The notes under the pieces were generated by a model. It had not been told where the DNA came from and made no database searches. It was given only the letters and a program-made list of their open reading frames with translations. Shown piece by piece: positions 1,400 to 55,644 of a DNA stretch of 64,000 bases. The stretch is taken from contig NZ_LMNI01000014.1 in assembly GCF_001422925.1 (NCBI RefSeq), positions 1-64,000 on the forward strand, in the 5' to 3' direction. The position numbers and the translations under genes are program-made. How positions within the stretch are numbered: position 1 is the first letter of the stretch; each line of letters starts with the position of its first letter. The DNA comes from Microbacterium sp. Leaf288. GTDB lineage: Bacteria > Actinomycetota > Actinomycetes > Actinomycetales > Microbacteriaceae.

Positions 1400-1875
1400 G
1401 GATCCTCGGTGGCCTCCCCGTCCTCCTCCCGGTTGCTCGTGATCGTGGTGTGCACGAGCGCCGCGATCTTGGCGCGACCTCTCCCCTCGGCCGACACGGG
1501 ATCCACCACGACCGAGTCCAGCGCCTGCGCACGGCCCTGCGCGTTCCTCGTGAACGAGTCGCAGTCGGCGAGGCCGCTCCGGTCGCGGAATCTCTGCGTC
1601 GTGACCTGTTCGAAGAGGTCGCAGTCCACTTCCGCGAACGCCTCTTCGTAGTGCGCGACGGTGGCCATCGTGTCCGCCTCGTTGCCGGCCGCCGGTGAAG
1701 GCGACGGCGCGTCGAGAGCGCGTCCCCCTGATCCCCCCGGCGGGCCGGTCACAGCCGACGCCGGCGACGCGATCAGACCCGCCGCGACCAGCGTGACGAT
1801 CACGATCAGTGTTCCCGCCCGCAGGCGCGAGCAGGCACCCAGGCCACCCGTGCGCGAGCCCCCAGAGCTCCCCAT
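1396..1875 (-). CDS. Secreted NTF2-like protein, upstream half of a split gene
   Basis: The 159-residue ORF starts at ATG 1875, six bases after a TATGAT hexamer, which suggests a leaderless mRNA. Residues 20-45 form a signal peptide with likely cleavage after ASA. After a Gly/Pro linker comes the first part of an NTF2-like domain with the C-x19-C pair found in its neighbours. The domain stops abruptly at a TGA, and its missing last strands are found in the -1 frame as the start of the next ORF (GTGA overlap). Either the two are one gene joined by -1 frameshifting, or the gene carries an indel (or sequencing error), or a domain is built from two translationally coupled chains. Confidence 0.72.
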   Translation of the reverse strand: MGSSGGSRTGGLGACSRLRAGTLIVIVTLVAAGLIASPASAVTGPPGGSGGRALDAPSPSPAAGNEADTMATVAHYEEAFAEVDCDLFEQVTTQRFRDRSGLADCDSFTRNAQGRAQALDSVVVDPVSAEGRGRAKIAALVHTTITSNREEDGEATEDP

Positions 1876-1881
1876 GGCCGG

Positions 1882-1887
1882 ATCATA
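1882..1887 (-). promoter_or_regulatory. -10 hexamer TATGAT, leaderless start
   Basis: TATGAT ends six bases before the ATG at 1875, and no Shine-Dalgarno is present. The transcript is predicted to start at or next to the A of the ATG. Confidence 0.6.
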
Positions 1888-1920
1888 GTCCGCTGCCCGC
1901 GCCGGGGGCACTACCCTCGC

Positions 1921-2616
1921 TCACTCGAGGCTGTCGATGACCCAGTCGTCTCCGTCGGCGACCACCGTGTACTCCCAGTCGATGGACTCGTCGACGGGCT
2001 CGTCGAGCGGGTTTCCATCTTCGCCGACCAGCCGGCTGTACGTCTCGGTGGTGCTGACCACGATTGCCTCGTCACTGCGGCGCACGCCGGTGAGATCCAC
2101 CTCGTAGTCCTCCACGGCGAGGCCGAACCCCTCGGCCTCGGTCTCGAACGCGGAGCAGTCGGCGAGCCCTGCCTGCGCCCGGAAAGCCTCGGTGGTGGAC
2201 GCCATGAAGGCCTGGCAGTCCGCGTCCTGCCAGGCGTCGTCGTACAGCTCCACGGCTGCGACGGCCGCCTTCTGGTCGGCGTCGACGGGAGTATCCTCGC
2301 CGGCGAGCCCACCGACTCTCGAGGCAGCGAGCGTCAGCAGCGGAATCGCCACCGCCGCGCCGATCAGGGCAACGAGCACGACCGCGCCGATCACGACCCA
2401 CACGATCCACCGGCTCGACTTCGGCTCCGGCGGCGCCGCGACCGCGGTGACCGTCGCCCCATCGTGCTGGACCCCGTGGACCGCCGCGCCGGGCACCGCC
2501 GGAGACGCCGCAGGCGCGGCATCCGTCCCCGCCACACGCTCCGTCCAGCGGGTGCCGTCCCACCAGCGGTTCGCGCCGTGGCCGTCGTCGTACCATCCGG
2601 GCGGAGTCGTCGTCAT
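1921..2616 (-). CDS. DUF2510 membrane-anchored NTF2-like protein
   Basis: The 231-residue protein has three parts: an N-terminal DUF2510 motif (PPGWYDDG, then RWWDGTRWTE), a Pro/Ala linker and one strong transmembrane helix (about residues 77-105), and a C-terminal NTF2-like domain with the C-x19-C pair. The topology places the NTF2-like domain outside the membrane. The domain closely matches the repeats of the next two ORFs on the same strand, so the three form a paralogous set. I chose ATG 2616 because DUF2510 begins there and because TATCGT lies six bases upstream; the longer start at 2649 has no support. Function is unknown. Confidence 0.8.
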   Translation of the reverse strand: MTTTPPGWYDDGHGANRWWDGTRWTERVAGTDAAPAASPAVPGAAVHGVQHDGATVTAVAAPPEPKSSRWIVWVVIGAVVLVALIGAAVAIPLLTLAASRVGGLAGEDTPVDADQKAAVAAVELYDDAWQDADCQAFMASTTEAFRAQAGLADCSAFETEAEGFGLAVEDYEVDLTGVRRSDEAIVVSTTETYSRLVGEDGNPLDEPVDESIDWEYTVVADGDDWVIDSLE

Positions 2617-2622
2617 GCGAGA

Positions 2623-2628
2623 ACGATA
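2623..2628 (-). promoter_or_regulatory. -10 hexamer TATCGT, leaderless start
   Basis: The hexamer is six bases upstream of ATG 2616, and no ribosome-binding site is visible. The rest of the 2617-2846 gap shows no gene. Confidence 0.5.
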
Positions 2629-2846
2629 GACCCGAAGGGCATCGGTCATCGAGGGGCGGACGGATGCCGCGCCGCAGCGTCTTCATGCCGCTCTCCGCTG
2701 CGCTGAGCCGCTGGCGGACGGACGATACAGCGGTGGTCGTCCTCATCGACAGTGAACCGGGCGACGTGAGGGTGTACACCGGGTCGCCGTGGATGGCGGC
2801 CCAGAGCTCGTGGCCTCGACCGCGGTGATGTCGTGTCGACCCGTCC

Positions 2847-3704
2847 TCACGCGAGCGGTCGCGGGCGGGCCAGCGGCATGGTTGCCGCCATCATCCAGCG
2901 CGGCAGGCGGAACATCGGGCGGTCCTTGCCGAGCGCGTCGATGCCGGCCATCTCGGCGGGACTCAGCTCGAAGTCGAAGACGTCGATGTTCGCCGCGATG
3001 TGTGCGGGGTTGGTCGATTTCGGGATGGCCACGAACCCGCGCTGCACGTGCCAGCGCAGGATGATCTGGACCGCCGACTTCCCGTGCGCGGCCGCGGCTC
3101 CCAGGACCGCGGGCTCTGCGAGGAGTTTCGTCGACCCGTGACCGAGCGGGTACCACGCCTCGGGGATGATCGCGTGCTGGGCCAGGAAGGCGAGCAGGTC
3201 CGGCTGCTGCCAGTGCGGGTGCAGCTCGACCTGGTCCACCGCGGGCGGGATCCGCGCCGCCGGAAGCAGGCGCTCGAGATCCGACACCGCGAAGTTGCTC
3301 ACCCCGATCGCGCGCACGACGCCCTGGTCGACGGCATCCTCCATCGCCCGCCATGCGCCCTTCACGTCGCCGACGGGCTGATGCAGGAGCAGCAGGTCGA
3401 GAGCGCCGCAGTCGAGTCGTTCCAGCGCGCCGCCGATCGCGGCGCGCGCCTTGTCGTAGCTGTAGTCCGAGGGCCACAGCTTCGTCGTGAGGAAGATCTC
3501 CTCGCGGGGGACCCCGGACGAACGGATGCCGCGCCCCACCGCCCGTTCGTTGCGATAGATGGCCGCGGTGTCGATGAGCCGGTACCCCGAGTCGAGAGCG
3601 GACTTCACACTCGACTCGCACACCGCCACGTCGGTGACGAGGTAGACGCCCAGGCCGAGCTGCGGCATCCGTGTTCCACTCGAGAGCGGGATGCTGGTCA
3701 CCAT
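2847..3704 (-). CDS. Aldo/keto reductase (2,5-diketogluconate reductase type)
   Basis: The 285-residue protein is an NADPH-dependent TIM-barrel reductase of carbonyl compounds. The catalytic tetrad is visible as D45 and Y50 (LIDTAAIYRNE), K75 (TTKLW) and H108 (LLLLHQP). The C-terminal part has the IPKST phosphate-binding motif of the NADP site. The start at ATG 3704 follows a strong GGAGGAGG; a longer reading to 3737 lacks support. Length and motifs fit the AKR5 subgroup (diketogluconate and methylglyoxal reductases). The substrate cannot be read from the sequence. It is transcribed alone. Confidence 0.93.
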   Translation of the reverse strand: MVTSIPLSSGTRMPQLGLGVYLVTDVAVCESSVKSALDSGYRLIDTAAIYRNERAVGRGIRSSGVPREEIFLTTKLWPSDYSYDKARAAIGGALERLDCGALDLLLLHQPVGDVKGAWRAMEDAVDQGVVRAIGVSNFAVSDLERLLPAARIPPAVDQVELHPHWQQPDLLAFLAQHAIIPEAWYPLGHGSTKLLAEPAVLGAAAAHGKSAVQIILRWHVQRGFVAIPKSTNPAHIAANIDVFDFELSPAEMAGIDALGKDRPMFRLPRWMMAATMPLARPRPLA

Positions 3705-50717: not shown

Positions 50718-52952
50718 CTAACCCTCGAGCACCACCAGCCGCTCGGTCGCGCGGGTCATCGCGACGTAGCGGTCGACCGCGCCCTCGATGCCCTCGCCGA
50801 ACGACGACGGCTCGACGAGCACGACGAGGTCGAACTCGAGGCCCTTCGCGAGCTCGGGGGTCAGCGACCGCACCCGCTCGCGAGGTGCGAACGAGAGGTC
50901 GCCGATGACGCACGCCACGCCCTCGCCGTGCTCCGCCAGCCACTCCGACAGGATCCGGTCACGGTCCGCCACCGCGGCGTGACGCACCGGCACACCGCTC
51001 GACCGGATCGACGTCGGCACGTTCGCATCGGGGATCGCCGCGCGGATCACCGGTTCGGCCACGGCCATCACCTCGCTCGGCGTGCGGTAGTTGATGGTGA
51101 GCGACGACACGCCCACCTCGGTCAGGCCGGCGTGCTCGAGGCGCTCCTGCCACGACTCGTGGAATCCGTGCCGCGCCTGTGCCCGATCGCCGACCACCGT
51201 GAAGCTGCGCGACGGGCAGCGGGCCAGCAGCATCCGCCATTCCGCGTCGGTGAGCTCCTGCGCCTCGTCGACGATCACGTGCGCGAACGGGCCCGAGAGG
51301 AGATCGGGGTCGACGGCGTCCAGCACCGACTCGTCGACGAGGCTGTTGCGCAGATCGTCGCCGTCCAGCCACTGCATCATCTCGTCGCCGGCCTCCTTCA
51401 GGCGGTCGACGACCTGCGCCATGTACTCACGCTCCTGCGCGAGCTTCGCCTCGCGCTCACGGCGTCGCCGCGACGCCCCCGGGTCGCCCAGCCGCCGCCG
51501 GGCCGCGTCGAGGAGCGGCAGGTCGGCGGTGGTCCAGGCCGTGGGGACCGGTCGCTGCAGCGCCTCGATCTCGTCCGGCTCGAGCCACGGCGCGCAGCGG
51601 CGCAGATACGCGGGCACGCTCCACAGATCCGAGACGAGAACGGATGCCTCGACCAGCGGCCACGCGCGACCGAAAGCGCGCGTCAGCTGTTCGTTGCGGG
51701 CCAGCGCCCGCCGCAGCTGGTGCAGCGGCACCTCTTCGCCGTCGACCTGATCGGTGAGGATGTCGAGGATCGTCTCCCACACCTGGTCGCGCGCCTCGTT
51801 GTGCGGCAGACCCGTCTCCGCCGACGCGAACGCCTCGGCCCAGTCCTGGGGATCGAGCCGCAGCTCGGCCCAGGGCGTCTCGACCACCAGGCCCACCGCG
51901 GGCGGCTCCTCGTAGAGCTGCACGGCGGCCTCGATCGCGTCGATCATGCGGGCGTCGGCCTTCAGGCGGGCGACTCGGGCATCGGGCTCCGCACCGGCGA
52001 GCCCGCCCTCGGCCACGAGGTCGCGCAGGGTGCAGGTCTGCACGCTCTCCTCGCCGAGGCTCGGGAGCACGTCCTCGACGTAGGAGAGGTACGCGGGGCT
52101 CGGACCGACGAACAGCACGCCGCCGCGCCCCTCGCCGAGGTGCGGGTCGGAGTAGACGAGGTAGGCGGCGCGGTGCAGCGCCACGACCGTCTTGCCCGTG
52201 CCCGGGCCTCCGTCGACGACGAGCGCGCCGCGCGAGCCGGCGCGGATGATCGAGTCCTGGTCGGCCTGGATCGTGCCCAGCACGTCACGCATGCGGGGCG
52301 ACCGGCTCGCGCCGAGGCTTGCGATGAACGCGGACTGGTCGTCGAGGGCGGCGTTGCGGTCGAGCCCCTCGGCGGTGAACACCTCGTCCCAGTAGTCGGT
52401 CACGCGGCCGCCGGTCCAGCGGTAGCGGCGGCGGCTCACGAGCCCCGAAGGGTGGGCGTGCGTCGCGGCGAAGAACGGCTCGGCGGCGGGCGTGCGCCAG
52501 TCGACGAGCAGGCGTCGGCCGGCAGCTGGGCCCACGCGCCCGGAGGCTCCGAGCGACGCGCCAGCGGCGCTTGGAGGGGGCGTGGGGACCGTGAGTCCGA
52601 ATCGTCCGATGTAGACGGGCTCGGAGCCGTCGGCGGGCACCATGCGGCCGAGGCACGCGTCGACGCCGAAGCGGCGCAGGACCCGCAGTCGGGCGGAGAC
52701 CCGGTGGATCTCGAGGTCGCGCTCGACCCCGGCCTGACCGTGCCCGCCGGGACGGCGGCGCAGTTCGTCGAGGCGTTCGTCGAGGCCTGCGATCGAGTGC
52801 GCGAGCGTGGCGGCGATGGCGGCGAAGTGCTGCTCGTCGCCGCCGACGAGTGCCGGGTCGGACTTGGCGGCGAGGCGCTCGGGAAGGTCGAAGGCGGTGG
52901 CGCCGACCGATCGAGAGGACGGGTGGGAATCGCTGATCAGAGGGGTGTTCAC
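50718..52952 (-). CDS. helR: HelR/HelD-type superfamily 1 helicase, RNA polymerase-recycling factor
   Basis: The 744-residue ATPase has Walker A GGPGTGKT (about residue 248-255), VIVDEAQELTDAEW (motif II), VGDRAQARHG, TINYRTPSEV and the C-terminal YVAMTRATERLVV. The N-terminal coiled-coil arm (20-90) is where HelD enters the polymerase channel. HelR proteins dislodge stalled or rifamycin-bound RNA polymerase and confer rifamycin tolerance. A rifamycin-associated element lies upstream. GTG 52952 is preferred because AGGAG precedes it; ATG 52973 is an alternative. Confidence 0.9.
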   Translation of the reverse strand: MNTPLISDSHPSSRSVGATAFDLPERLAAKSDPALVGGDEQHFAAIAATLAHSIAGLDERLDELRRRPGGHGQAGVERDLEIHRVSARLRVLRRFGVDACLGRMVPADGSEPVYIGRFGLTVPTPPPSAAGASLGASGRVGPAAGRRLLVDWRTPAAEPFFAATHAHPSGLVSRRRYRWTGGRVTDYWDEVFTAEGLDRNAALDDQSAFIASLGASRSPRMRDVLGTIQADQDSIIRAGSRGALVVDGGPGTGKTVVALHRAAYLVYSDPHLGEGRGGVLFVGPSPAYLSYVEDVLPSLGEESVQTCTLRDLVAEGGLAGAEPDARVARLKADARMIDAIEAAVQLYEEPPAVGLVVETPWAELRLDPQDWAEAFASAETGLPHNEARDQVWETILDILTDQVDGEEVPLHQLRRALARNEQLTRAFGRAWPLVEASVLVSDLWSVPAYLRRCAPWLEPDEIEALQRPVPTAWTTADLPLLDAARRRLGDPGASRRRREREAKLAQEREYMAQVVDRLKEAGDEMMQWLDGDDLRNSLVDESVLDAVDPDLLSGPFAHVIVDEAQELTDAEWRMLLARCPSRSFTVVGDRAQARHGFHESWQERLEHAGLTEVGVSSLTINYRTPSEVMAVAEPVIRAAIPDANVPTSIRSSGVPVRHAAVADRDRILSEWLAEHGEGVACVIGDLSFAPRERVRSLTPELAKGLEFDLVVLVEPSSFGEGIEGAVDRYVAMTRATERLVVLEG

Positions 52953-53035
52953 GGCATGGGCTCCTGGCGGCATCGCGACGCGGAATCGGACGGAGTAAGT
53001 CAGATGAGAGGGGCGGGGGAGCGTCGCGACCGACC

Positions 53036-53041
53036 AGTATG
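53036..53041 (-). promoter_or_regulatory. Candidate -10 (CATACT) for helR
   Basis: It lies just downstream of the rifamycin-associated element on the minus strand. A TTGCGG within that element sits 19 bp further upstream as a possible -35. Confidence 0.4.
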
Positions 53042-53048
53042 CGCGCTC

Positions 53049-53071
53049 GGGGGGCCCTTGCCGCAAGGCCC
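53049..53071. promoter_or_regulatory. Rifamycin-associated element (RAE) upstream of helR
   Basis: The 23-bp dyad contains CTTGCCGCAAGGCCC, matching the core of the actinobacterial RAE, with GGGG and CCCC outer arms. RAEs precede helR, arr, rph and rox and drive induction by rifamycins. It is about 100 bp upstream of the helR start. The rest of the 337-bp gap to 53289 holds no gene; a GATACT at 53226-53231 is a possible -10 for the sulfatase. Confidence 0.8.
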
Positions 53072-53289
53072 CCACCCCCGGATATCCTGGTAGTGGCAAG
53101 GAGGTCGCGCCTCTGCGTGCGCAGACCCCGCCCGGTCCCGGGGCCACACCGCCCCGCGTCACCCACTGTTCACCTCGCGGCGCAGTTTCACGCGATCCAA
53201 GTGATGCGGCGCGTGCATCCCCGTCGATACTGTGACACCACTGGGGGGTGGCGCTCTCGCCCGCCCGCTTCCGGGGACAGGAGATACGC

Positions 53290-55644
53290 ATGACCGCTGA
53301 TGACCGCCATTCTGTCGTAGGGACACCGCTCCCGCCCGCGCGAACGCTGCCGTTCCCGCCGAAGCCTTCCGGCAGCTACGCGGGGCGCACGCTCGCCGAG
53401 TCGACCTACTCGCCGCTGCCGCCCGAGCGGCACCTGGCCGACGACGCGCCCAACGTGCTCGTCATCCTCGTCGACGACGCCGGCCCCGCGTTGCCCGCAC
53501 CGCTGGGTGGCAAAGTCGCGACTCCGACGCTCGAGCGGATCCGCGAAGGCGGCATCGGCTACAACCGCTTCCACACCACCGCCATGTGCTCGCCGACCCG
53601 TGCCGCGCTGCTCACGGGGCGCAACCACCACCGCGTCGGGGCCGGCCAGATCGCCGAGCTCGCAGCCGATTGGGACGGCTACTCCGGTCACATCCCCAAG
53701 AGCAGCGCCACCATGGCGGAGGTGCTGCGCAACTACGGCTATTCCACGGCGGCGTGGGGCAAGTGGCACAACACCCCCGCCGAGGAGACGACCAAGGCCG
53801 GCCCGTTCGAGAACTGGCCCACGGGCAACGGCTTCGAGTACTTCTACGGCTTCCTCGCCGGCGAGGCATCGCAGTACGAGCCCAACCTCGTGCGCAACAC
53901 CACGTCGGTGCTGCCGCCGAAGTCGCCCGAGGAGGGCTACCACCTCAGCGAGGACATCGCCGACGACGCGATCTCGTGGCTCCGCGACCACAAGGCGCTC
54001 TCGCCCGACAAGCCGTTCTTCATGTACTGGGCCACCGGCGCGATCCACGGCCCGCACCACGTCCACAAGGAGTGGGCCGACAAGTACAAGGGCGTGTTCG
54101 ATGACGGGTGGGATGCTTACCGCGAGGACGCCCTCGCCGGCGCGAAGGCCGCGGGGTGGGTCCCGCGGGACGCCGCGCTGACGCCGCGCCCCGAGTCACT
54201 GCAGGGCTGGGACGACATCCCCGACCACCAGAAGCCGTTCCAGGCCCGCCTCATGGAGGTGTGCGCCGGCTTCGGCGAGCACGCCGACGTGCAGGCGGGC
54301 CGCCTCGTCGACGAGCTCGGGCGCCTCGGGTACATCGAGAACACGATCGTCGTCTACATCTGGGGCGACAACGGCTCGTCGGGGGAGGGGCAGAACGGCA
54401 CGATCAGCGAGCTGCTCGCGCAGAACATGATCCCGACCACTGTCGACCAGCACATCGCCGCCCTCGAGGAGCTCGGAGGCCTCGACGCGCTCGGAACGCC
54501 GGCGACCGACAACCAGTATCACGCGGCGTGGGCGTGGGCCGGGTCGTCGCCGTACCAGGGCATGAAGCTGATGGCCTCGCACCTGGGCGGCACCCGCAAT
54601 CCGATGTTCCTCCAGTGGCCGGCGCGCATCGCACACGACCCCGTGCCGCGCACGCAGTTCCACCACGTGATCGACCTGGCTCCCACGATCTACGAGATCC
54701 TGGGGATCTCCCATCCCGACACCGTCAACGGCGTCCCGCAGGACCCGATCGACGGCACGAGCTTCGCCTACTCGATCGACGACAAGACGGCAGACGGTCG
54801 CCACCGCGTGCAGTACTTCGAGATCATGGCCAGCCGGTCGATCTACGAGGACGGGTGGCTCGCGTCGACGACGGGTCCGCGCCTGCCCTGGGTGCCCGGC
54901 ATGCCAGCGGGCATCCAGACCTGGACGCCCGACGACGACCGATGGGAGCTGTACAACCTCGACGAGGACTGGAGCCAGTCGAAGGACCTCGCCGGCCAGC
55001 ATCCCGAGAAGCTCGCCGCATTGAGGGAGCTGTTCGCCATCGAGGCGGCGAAGAACAAGGTGCTCCCCATCGGGGGCGGACTGTGGATCGCGCCGCTGCA
55101 CCCCGAGCTGCGCATTTCTCCGCCCTACACCGAGTGGGACTTCACAGGCGACACGTTCCGGGTGCCCGAGTTCTGCGCCCCCGCCCTCGGCAACAAGCCG
55201 AACGTCGTCACCATCGAGGTGACGGTCGGCGACCGGGCCAACGGCGTTCTCTACAAGCTCGGCGGCGCGGGCGGCGGCCTCACAGCGTACGTGATCGACG
55301 GCATCCTGACGTACGAGTACAACCTCTTCCTCGTGCAGCGGACAACCATCGCGGCGGCCGAGCCGCTCGCCGCCGGCGACCACACGATCGAGATCGAGAC
55401 GTCGTACGTCGTGCCGAAGCCGGGCGGGCCGCTCGGCGTCGTGCTGCGGGTCGACGGCACGGAGGTCACGTCGGGCACGGTGCCGGTCAGCGCGCCGCTG
55501 CTGTTCTCGGCGAATGACTGCCTCGACGTGGGCCGAGCGTACGGCGGCGCCGTGTCGCGGGCGTACGCCGACAAGATGCCCTTCGCCTTCGACGGCGAGA
55601 TCGGCCGCGTGCACGTCGCCTACAAGGTGCCTGCGCAGGCGTAG
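53290..55644 (+). CDS. Arylsulfatase (type I, formylglycine-dependent)
   Basis: The 784-residue enzyme hydrolyses sulfate esters. The formylglycine signature is TAMCSPTRAALLTG, with C100 converted to formylglycine. Metal ligands are VILVDDAG at the N-terminus and WGDNGSSGEG. The length and the C-terminal beta domain match the large arylsulfatase A-like group. No signal peptide is seen, so it is probably cytoplasmic. ATG 53290 follows CAGGAGAT. The nearby organosulfur operon suggests a general sulfur-scavenging habit. Confidence 0.93.
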   Translation: MTADDRHSVVGTPLPPARTLPFPPKPSGSYAGRTLAESTYSPLPPERHLADDAPNVLVILVDDAGPALPAPLGGKVATPTLERIREGGIGYNRFHTTAMCSPTRAALLTGRNHHRVGAGQIAELAADWDGYSGHIPKSSATMAEVLRNYGYSTAAWGKWHNTPAEETTKAGPFENWPTGNGFEYFYGFLAGEASQYEPNLVRNTTSVLPPKSPEEGYHLSEDIADDAISWLRDHKALSPDKPFFMYWATGAIHGPHHVHKEWADKYKGVFDDGWDAYREDALAGAKAAGWVPRDAALTPRPESLQGWDDIPDHQKPFQARLMEVCAGFGEHADVQAGRLVDELGRLGYIENTIVVYIWGDNGSSGEGQNGTISELLAQNMIPTTVDQHIAALEELGGLDALGTPATDNQYHAAWAWAGSSPYQGMKLMASHLGGTRNPMFLQWPARIAHDPVPRTQFHHVIDLAPTIYEILGISHPDTVNGVPQDPIDGTSFAYSIDDKTADGRHRVQYFEIMASRSIYEDGWLASTTGPRLPWVPGMPAGIQTWTPDDDRWELYNLDEDWSQSKDLAGQHPEKLAALRELFAIEAAKNKVLPIGGGLWIAPLHPELRISPPYTEWDFTGDTFRVPEFCAPALGNKPNVVTIEVTVGDRANGVLYKLGGAGGGLTAYVIDGILTYEYNLFLVQRTTIAAAEPLAAGDHTIEIETSYVVPKPGGPLGVVLRVDGTEVTSGTVPVSAPLLFSANDCLDVGRAYGGAVSRAYADKMPFAFDGEIGRVHVAYKVPAQA

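Follow-up and report, generated by a model that had tools for sequence, protein, structure and literature searches.

We analyzed the helR locus in a stretch of 64,000 nucleotides from Microbacterium sp. Leaf288 (hereafter the window). The open reading frame running from 52952 to 50718 on the minus strand encodes a full-length HelR of 744 aa and begins with GTG. It matched the NCBIfam model NF041254 (motor_HelR) with a score of 1196.5 bits (cut-off 750), with 705 of the 706 profile positions covered, and was the sole match to this family in the whole 4.75-Mb genome; an earlier sequence-only reading, in which the helicase had been called HelR, is borne out by this score. The mycobacterial HelD model scored 356.7 bits on the same protein, below its cut-off of 1051, and the protein aligned with M. 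smegmatis HelD (6yxu_H) over residues 69-742 with an E-value of 6.6e-95. Its nearest named relatives are from Microbacterium, with M. trichothecenolyticum at 89% identity. A sulfatase-like gene with weak curated matches (window positions 53290-55644) diverges from helR, and its homologue was also seen 5' of helR in L009, L010, L015 and L016. The features of the locus are as follows.

50718..52952, minus strand: helR, RNA polymerase recycling/rescue motor ATPase (NF041254 match; relative of 6yxu_H)
52961-52965, minus strand: AGGAG ribosome-binding site, eight bases 5' of the GTG (read from the sequence)
~53029, minus strand: predicted sense +1
53036..53041, minus strand: sense -10-like CATACT, +21 from the dyad centre ([CG]A...T in 174/174 sites)
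53053..53071, no strand: rifamycin-associated element (RAE), a 19-bp dyad with the core CTTGC[GC]GCAAG at 53057-53067 and its centre at 53062
53058..53063, plus strand: antisense -35-like TTGCCG, sharing 3 bp with the sense -35 (sequence and geometry)
53061..53066, minus strand: sense -35-like TTGCGG, 19 bp 5' of the sense -10 (sequence and geometry)
53083..53088, plus strand: antisense -10-like TATCCT, -21 from the dyad centre (TA...T in 169/174 sites)
53095..53130, plus strand: predicted antisense transcript start, +1 at ~53095, reading GGCAAGGAGG... (placed from the -10 and the hairpin offset of relatives)

The sequence CTTGCCGCAAGGCCC sits at 53057-53071 on the plus strand. When both strands of the window were searched with a 19-base RAE-like pattern, allowing at most three mismatches, one place was found, against 0.05 expected from shuffles, and CTTGCGGCAAGG without mismatch occurred exactly once in the 4.75-Mb genome. 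A 12-mer search of the same genome in which one mismatch was allowed gave, besides one exact site that was read on both strands, eleven places with one mismatch. The 53-bp module pattern, which contains both -10s, had one mismatch-free copy in the genome; the other places had 3 mismatches, and the reversed control of the pattern gave numbers similar to theirs. The identification of the dyad as RAE, made from the letters of the window, was upheld by the pattern and genome searches, and the genome search for further copies that had been proposed along with it found a single intact RAE. The placement of RAE at the -35 region agreed as well with our analysis, in which TTGCGG lies 19 bp 5' of CATACT, a geometry common to the relatives, and the 19-bp palindrome overlaps the -35 of the predicted helR promoter. 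The statement that no arr or rph gene lies nearby was consistent with the genome search, to which we add an Arr-family gene on another contig. This rifampin ADP-ribosyltransferase gene (L213, contig C12, ~221369-221764) scored 139.4 bits against a cut-off of 130, and no RAE was seen by eye in the 400 bp upstream of it; in a profile search of the genome neither rph nor rox gave a match over the cut-off. The presence of an Arr-family gene without a visible RAE indicates that HelR may not be the only basis of rifamycin tolerance.

We then compared the site with other RAE sites. RAE was carried by 76 of 81 helR loci (80 fetched and the window), the loci without it at the score cut-off being L072, L073, L080, L087 and L069, the last with 55 bp of upstream sequence. 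Aligned without gaps, the 76 loci were conserved far beyond 19 bp. Further sites were collected by pattern searches with the core alone, which matched 26 of 296 genomes in the phylum, 43 of 249 in the window's family, and 45 of 60 in a third set whose genus was inferred to be Mycobacterium and from which 30 loci were used. After removal of duplicates and four sites, 174 distinct sites were available (75 from the helR set, and 72 and 27 from the pattern sets). They were oriented according to the gene downstream; for seven HelD sites in set C the hexamers gave a first orientation, which the downstream HelD frame bore out. The duplicates were L116, L139, L168, L169, L188, L199 and L205, and the identical 90-bp sites L016 (same as L009) and L149 (same as L066) were likewise removed. 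The four sites left out were L109, L127 and L148, which have neither -10 and no resistance gene, and L135, which has both -10s and no gene.

At a distance of exactly 21 bp, the sense hexamer [CG]A...T followed the dyad centre in all 174 sites, and a TA...T hexamer on the opposite strand preceded it in 169 of the 174. With the four omitted sites put back, the counts were 175/178 and 170/178, respectively. By set, the antisense hexamer was present in 73/75 (helR) and in 69/72 and 27/27 (pattern sets), with shuffle means of 0.9/75, 0.8/72 and 0.3/27, and TA...T at any other place, at offsets 12 to 39 on either strand, never rose above 12% of a set. Among the five exceptions, L022 and L052 seem to be displaced by a single base; L129, L130 and L141 read [CG]ATAAT. 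The site counts are not independent, because the sites are related to one another. The two-sided rule, first met in the helR set, held in sites collected with no requirement for a -10, and it applied not just at helR but also at rox, rph, arr, rgt and helD. In both arms 19 bp separate the -10 from TTGC[GC]G, and within the palindrome the -35s share three bases. All ten distinct Microbacterium sites in the helR set, the window's among them, carried the intact module with both -10s and read TATCCT at the antisense -10. RAE therefore resembles a -35 region used in common by two promoters that point apart. The sequence-only reading appears incomplete in that such a promoter pair seems to be centred on RAE, and in that an Arr-family gene without RAE lies elsewhere in the genome.

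The two arms differ in detail. The sense -10 began with C or G and never with T in 174/174 sites, such that the -12 T is missing; by a consensus count the antisense -10 was not clearly stronger than the sense -10. The antisense strand also carried [CG]A...T (as in GAGAGT) at offset 27 in 81 of the 174 sites, and hence the hexamer at -21 is not the sole hexamer-like feature on that strand.

The geometry leaves room for a reading in which RAE is an operator alone, with the upstream TA...T serving as the outer contact of an extended operator or as a spent promoter, and with no backward transcription. The dyad core and its G/C-run flanks were very strongly conserved, more than would be expected of -35 elements alone, and a factor that binds the palindrome is assumed in PMC12802891 and PMC10719064, as far as the portions of these papers used here go. 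On the other hand, the antisense hexamer kept the main -10 positions T1, A2 and T6 and left the middle free (TACGTT, TATCCT, TAAATT), and in many relatives a GC-rich hairpin with a U-rich tail lies behind the antisense -10. At one fixed score, a terminator-like hairpin with U-tract stood directly behind the hexamer, on the same strand, in 98 of 276 sites (58/174 and 40/102 further sites), and in these the backward transcript is predicted to be little more than an intrinsic terminator. The further sites came from a class-wide search requiring both -10s, and were used for terminators and the gene census alone; two sites with too short an upstream sequence are left out of the total. Shuffle controls gave 0.2-0.8 for the 174 sites and 1.2 for the 102, the sense transcript gave 0/174 and 0/104, and the same DNA in the sense direction gave 2/174 and 2/102. 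Hairpin starts peaked at offset 33, which is the predicted antisense +1, in 58 of the 98, and the 98 hairpins comprised 95 distinct sequences. When the U-tract was not required and G-T and A-C were treated alike in choosing the stems, these were found in 181/277 real versus 40/277 shuffled sequences, and their starts formed a second peak at offset 29. In the antisense stems so chosen, G-T pairs numbered 102 against 56 for A-C, an excess that fits the antisense strand as the RNA. The terminators, the hairpin offset, the distinct hairpins and the G-T excess together argue for a transcribed antisense strand, and we consider the operator-only reading unlikely.

The remaining 178 of the 276 sites had no terminator by score, and among the ten distinct Microbacterium sites of the helR set L018 was the only one with an antisense terminator. 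No U-tract terminator was recognised on the predicted antisense transcript of the window, which heads towards the sulfatase gene starting at ~53290. Antisense transcription from RAE could thus enter the sulfatase-like gene.

The stems 5' of RAE appear by eye to keep their pairing while the sequence changes (95 of the 98 hairpins are distinct), which would also fit a structured leader on the sense strand (an attenuator or riboswitch) made from a more distal promoter. An upstream sense start has been described in M. smegmatis, as given in the part of PMC10719064 drawn on here. However, no conserved sense promoter was found 5' of RAE at any offset from -100 to -26, where sense TA...T reached at most 12/174 per offset and no sense -10 recurred. 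The U-tracts lie on the antisense side, and the G-T excess likewise fits that strand. In addition, Rfam gave no match at the gathering threshold in five relatives and two sub-threshold matches alone in the window region. A sense-strand leader is thus very improbable. Two related candidates were rejected: a structured RNA at the RAE region, which had no Rfam match at the gathering threshold, and an upstream TATAGC as a sense -10, for which the last position fails and the Microbacterium sites keep the antisense hexamer alone.

To see which genes RAE precedes, we classified the genes by tblastn against representatives scanned with curated models. The pattern searches gave 104 distinct sites (77 from the phylum and the window's family, and 27 from the inferred Mycobacterium genus), and 99 of these precede helR/helD, rox, rph, arr or rgt. 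The other five were one site before an MFS efflux pump, one without a recognisable gene (L135) and three chance-like sites that have neither -10. Occurrence of the same dyad at many unrelated genes had been named as the outcome that would speak against the first interpretation of the locus; it was looked for in these sites and did not appear. In these sites, and in the window's genome with its one intact copy, RAE is not spread over unrelated genes. In the class search with the two-sided pattern, 131 of 296 genomes matched, and the reversed control had 0 among the matches listed. We read 109 class sites (29 loci returned and 80 picked among the matches listed), five of which were repeats of earlier sites or L325, a chance match that was dropped; known families followed in 103 of the 109.

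Several of the remaining genes may extend the list of rifamycin-response genes. The MFS pump gene at L136 (~1568-3016) is of the DHA2 type and matched TIGR00711 at 289.6 bits against a cut-off of 230.2; at this locus, in the window's family, the module with an antisense terminator stands before the LmrB/EmrB-like pump gene. In L255, L257 and L259, which represent three genera of one family, RAE lies directly before the ATPase gene of a DrrA-like ABC pump, with TIGR01188 scores of 325.7, 339.1 and 341.2 bits, respectively, against a cut-off of 312.45. A DrrB-like permease, checked in L255 alone, scored 183 bits, below the cut-off of 223. On the basis of their position, the DrrA-like genes behind RAE are candidate rifamycin exporters. 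The frame at L263 begins, by eye, like an FAD monooxygenase and had no tblastn match to rox, and RAE at L280 precedes an Amidase_2 gene (55.1 bits, cut-off 26); the modules at L263, L280 and L135 are possible remnants. At all 15 helR loci in which RAE is at least 500 bp upstream, an Rgt-like glycosyltransferase match lies between RAE and helR, and RAE is 0.55-1.6 kb 5' of helR (L019, L021, L023, L024, L029, L032, L035, L038, L047, L054, L059, L061, L063, L075 and L076). One RAE therefore seems to serve an rgt-helR pair, suggesting an operon. At L033 helR and RAE were observed on a Streptomyces plasmid record (AP026074.1, SNP1), indicating that the helR-RAE unit can sit on a plasmid.

Taken together, we propose that helR is rifamycin-inducible under a symmetric divergent promoter centred on RAE, with a putative dimeric regulator at the dyad, and we give this reading a probability of roughly 0.7. 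The sense arm (TTGCGG, 19 bp, CATACT) would transcribe helR, and the antisense arm (TTGCCG, 19 bp, TATCCT) would point away from it and yield a ~30-nt terminated RNA alone in about a third of the sites. With each -10 exactly 21 bp from the centre and with overlapping -35s, both arms should not be filled by RNA polymerase at the same time, and we infer that the antisense arm is transcribed and competes with the sense arm. In the presence of rifamycin, the putative dimeric regulator at the RAE dyad would most likely shift the promoter to the sense arm. The HelR thus made would bind stalled RNA polymerase and free it from DNA and drug. Induction and tolerance in the window organism would be expected by analogy with the work on Streptomyces and Mycobacterium.

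The regulator would be dispensable if RNA polymerase traffic over both promoters sensed the drug by itself, as described for helD of B. subtilis, which senses rifampicin through two convergent promoters (PMC12802891, in the portion cited here). The parts are similar: the B. subtilis system has a helD-type gene, a weaker sense promoter, an antisense promoter with a 19-bp spacer and a short terminated RNA, and the RAE sites have a predicted antisense promoter with the same spacer and, in about a third of them, a predicted short terminated RNA. In B. subtilis, however, the promoters converge and the polymerases collide, whereas the promoters here are divergent with a shared -35, and the polymerases should exclude each other; according to the same source, shortening the distance in B. 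subtilis, with steric interference, abolished induction. We also examined a five-state mutual-exclusion model, in which induction was obtained in 0 of 4000 random parameter sets, and the algebra of the model showed that the sense flux can solely fall as the drug-bound fraction rises. Occlusion by polymerase alone was accordingly rejected as the switch, and this reading is quite unlikely. The lack of induction in the model indicates that an extra component is needed, which favours a dimeric regulator, a protein on the nearly invariant dyad being the simplest candidate.

A role for the short antisense RNA itself is a bolder candidate than a dimeric protein. The antisense arm would here be the sensor: a ~30-nt RNA would be made as long as RNA polymerase extends past three nucleotides, rifamycin would abolish this terminator-only RNA first, and it would be the loss of the RNA, and not a drug-binding protein, that activates the sense arm of helR, rox, rph, arr and rgt across Actinomycetota. 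We regard this version as doubtful. A further reading takes HelR for a constitutive housekeeping recycler and RAE for a relic. Class II HelD proteins do recycle polymerase also without drug, as reported in the part of PMC10719064 considered, but the intact module with both -10s in 10/10 distinct Microbacterium sites of the helR set speaks against a relic, and we hold this reading to be highly improbable.

The divergent arrangement with a dimeric regulator can be set beside known systems. In relatives, rifampicin induces the gene, deletion of half of RAE loses the induction, and HelR gives protection, according to PMC10719064 as far as consulted. SVEN_6029 of Streptomyces venezuelae and MAB_3189c of Mycobacterium abscessus likewise have a HelR product and RAE at the -35 (PMC10719064, PMC8655204); in the portions of these papers used here both are described with the 19-bp palindrome and sense promoters, and a symmetric antisense -10 and a terminator are not mentioned. 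M. smegmatis is reported to have a second promoter, in the sense direction, that starts ~20 bp upstream of RAE (PMC10719064, same portion), which is close to the antisense start predicted here. Within the genus, Microbacterium sp. PAMC 28756 and M. hominis SJTG1 are entered as (potential) helR variants in Appendix 1 Figure A8 of PMC8655204, and that paper, in the part seen, ties this HelR group to upstream RAEs and names three exceptions, none from Microbacterium. Microbacterium helR is thus already in the RAE-linked HelR group, and the helR-RAE part of the locus is ordinary and of a known kind. On the other hand, we found no antisense promoter at RAE in the open-licence literature (most subscription papers and all preprints lie outside it), and the predicted backward promoter arm of RAE looks new.

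In its part cited here, PMC12802891 (January 2026) states that the mechanism of RAE remains to be elucidated. The symmetric divergent architecture would place a concrete structural constraint on any answer to how RAE senses the drug, and from it one would expect a start on the antisense strand, arms that exclude each other and a response to point mutations in the antisense -10. The two-sided pattern also provides a sharper genome search, one that finds candidate rifamycin-response genes such as those for DrrA-like ABC and DHA2 MFS pumps. The same portion of PMC12802891 notes that not all helD genes have two convergent promoters and that the actinobacterial ones carry RAE, possibly bound by a factor. 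The rifampicin alarm of B. subtilis helD resembles the unit proposed here as a rifampicin-responsive helD-type gene with a 19-bp-spacer antisense promoter and a short terminated RNA, of which the RAE sites show a promoter-like antisense -10 (169/174) and a terminator-like sequence (98/276, the window not among them); it differs, by that account, in having convergent promoters, no RAE and a class I HelD. Convergent, non-overlapping promoters of the B. subtilis type do not occur at the locus analyzed here, where two predicted divergent arms are arranged on one dyad, the -10s point apart and the -35 region is shared.
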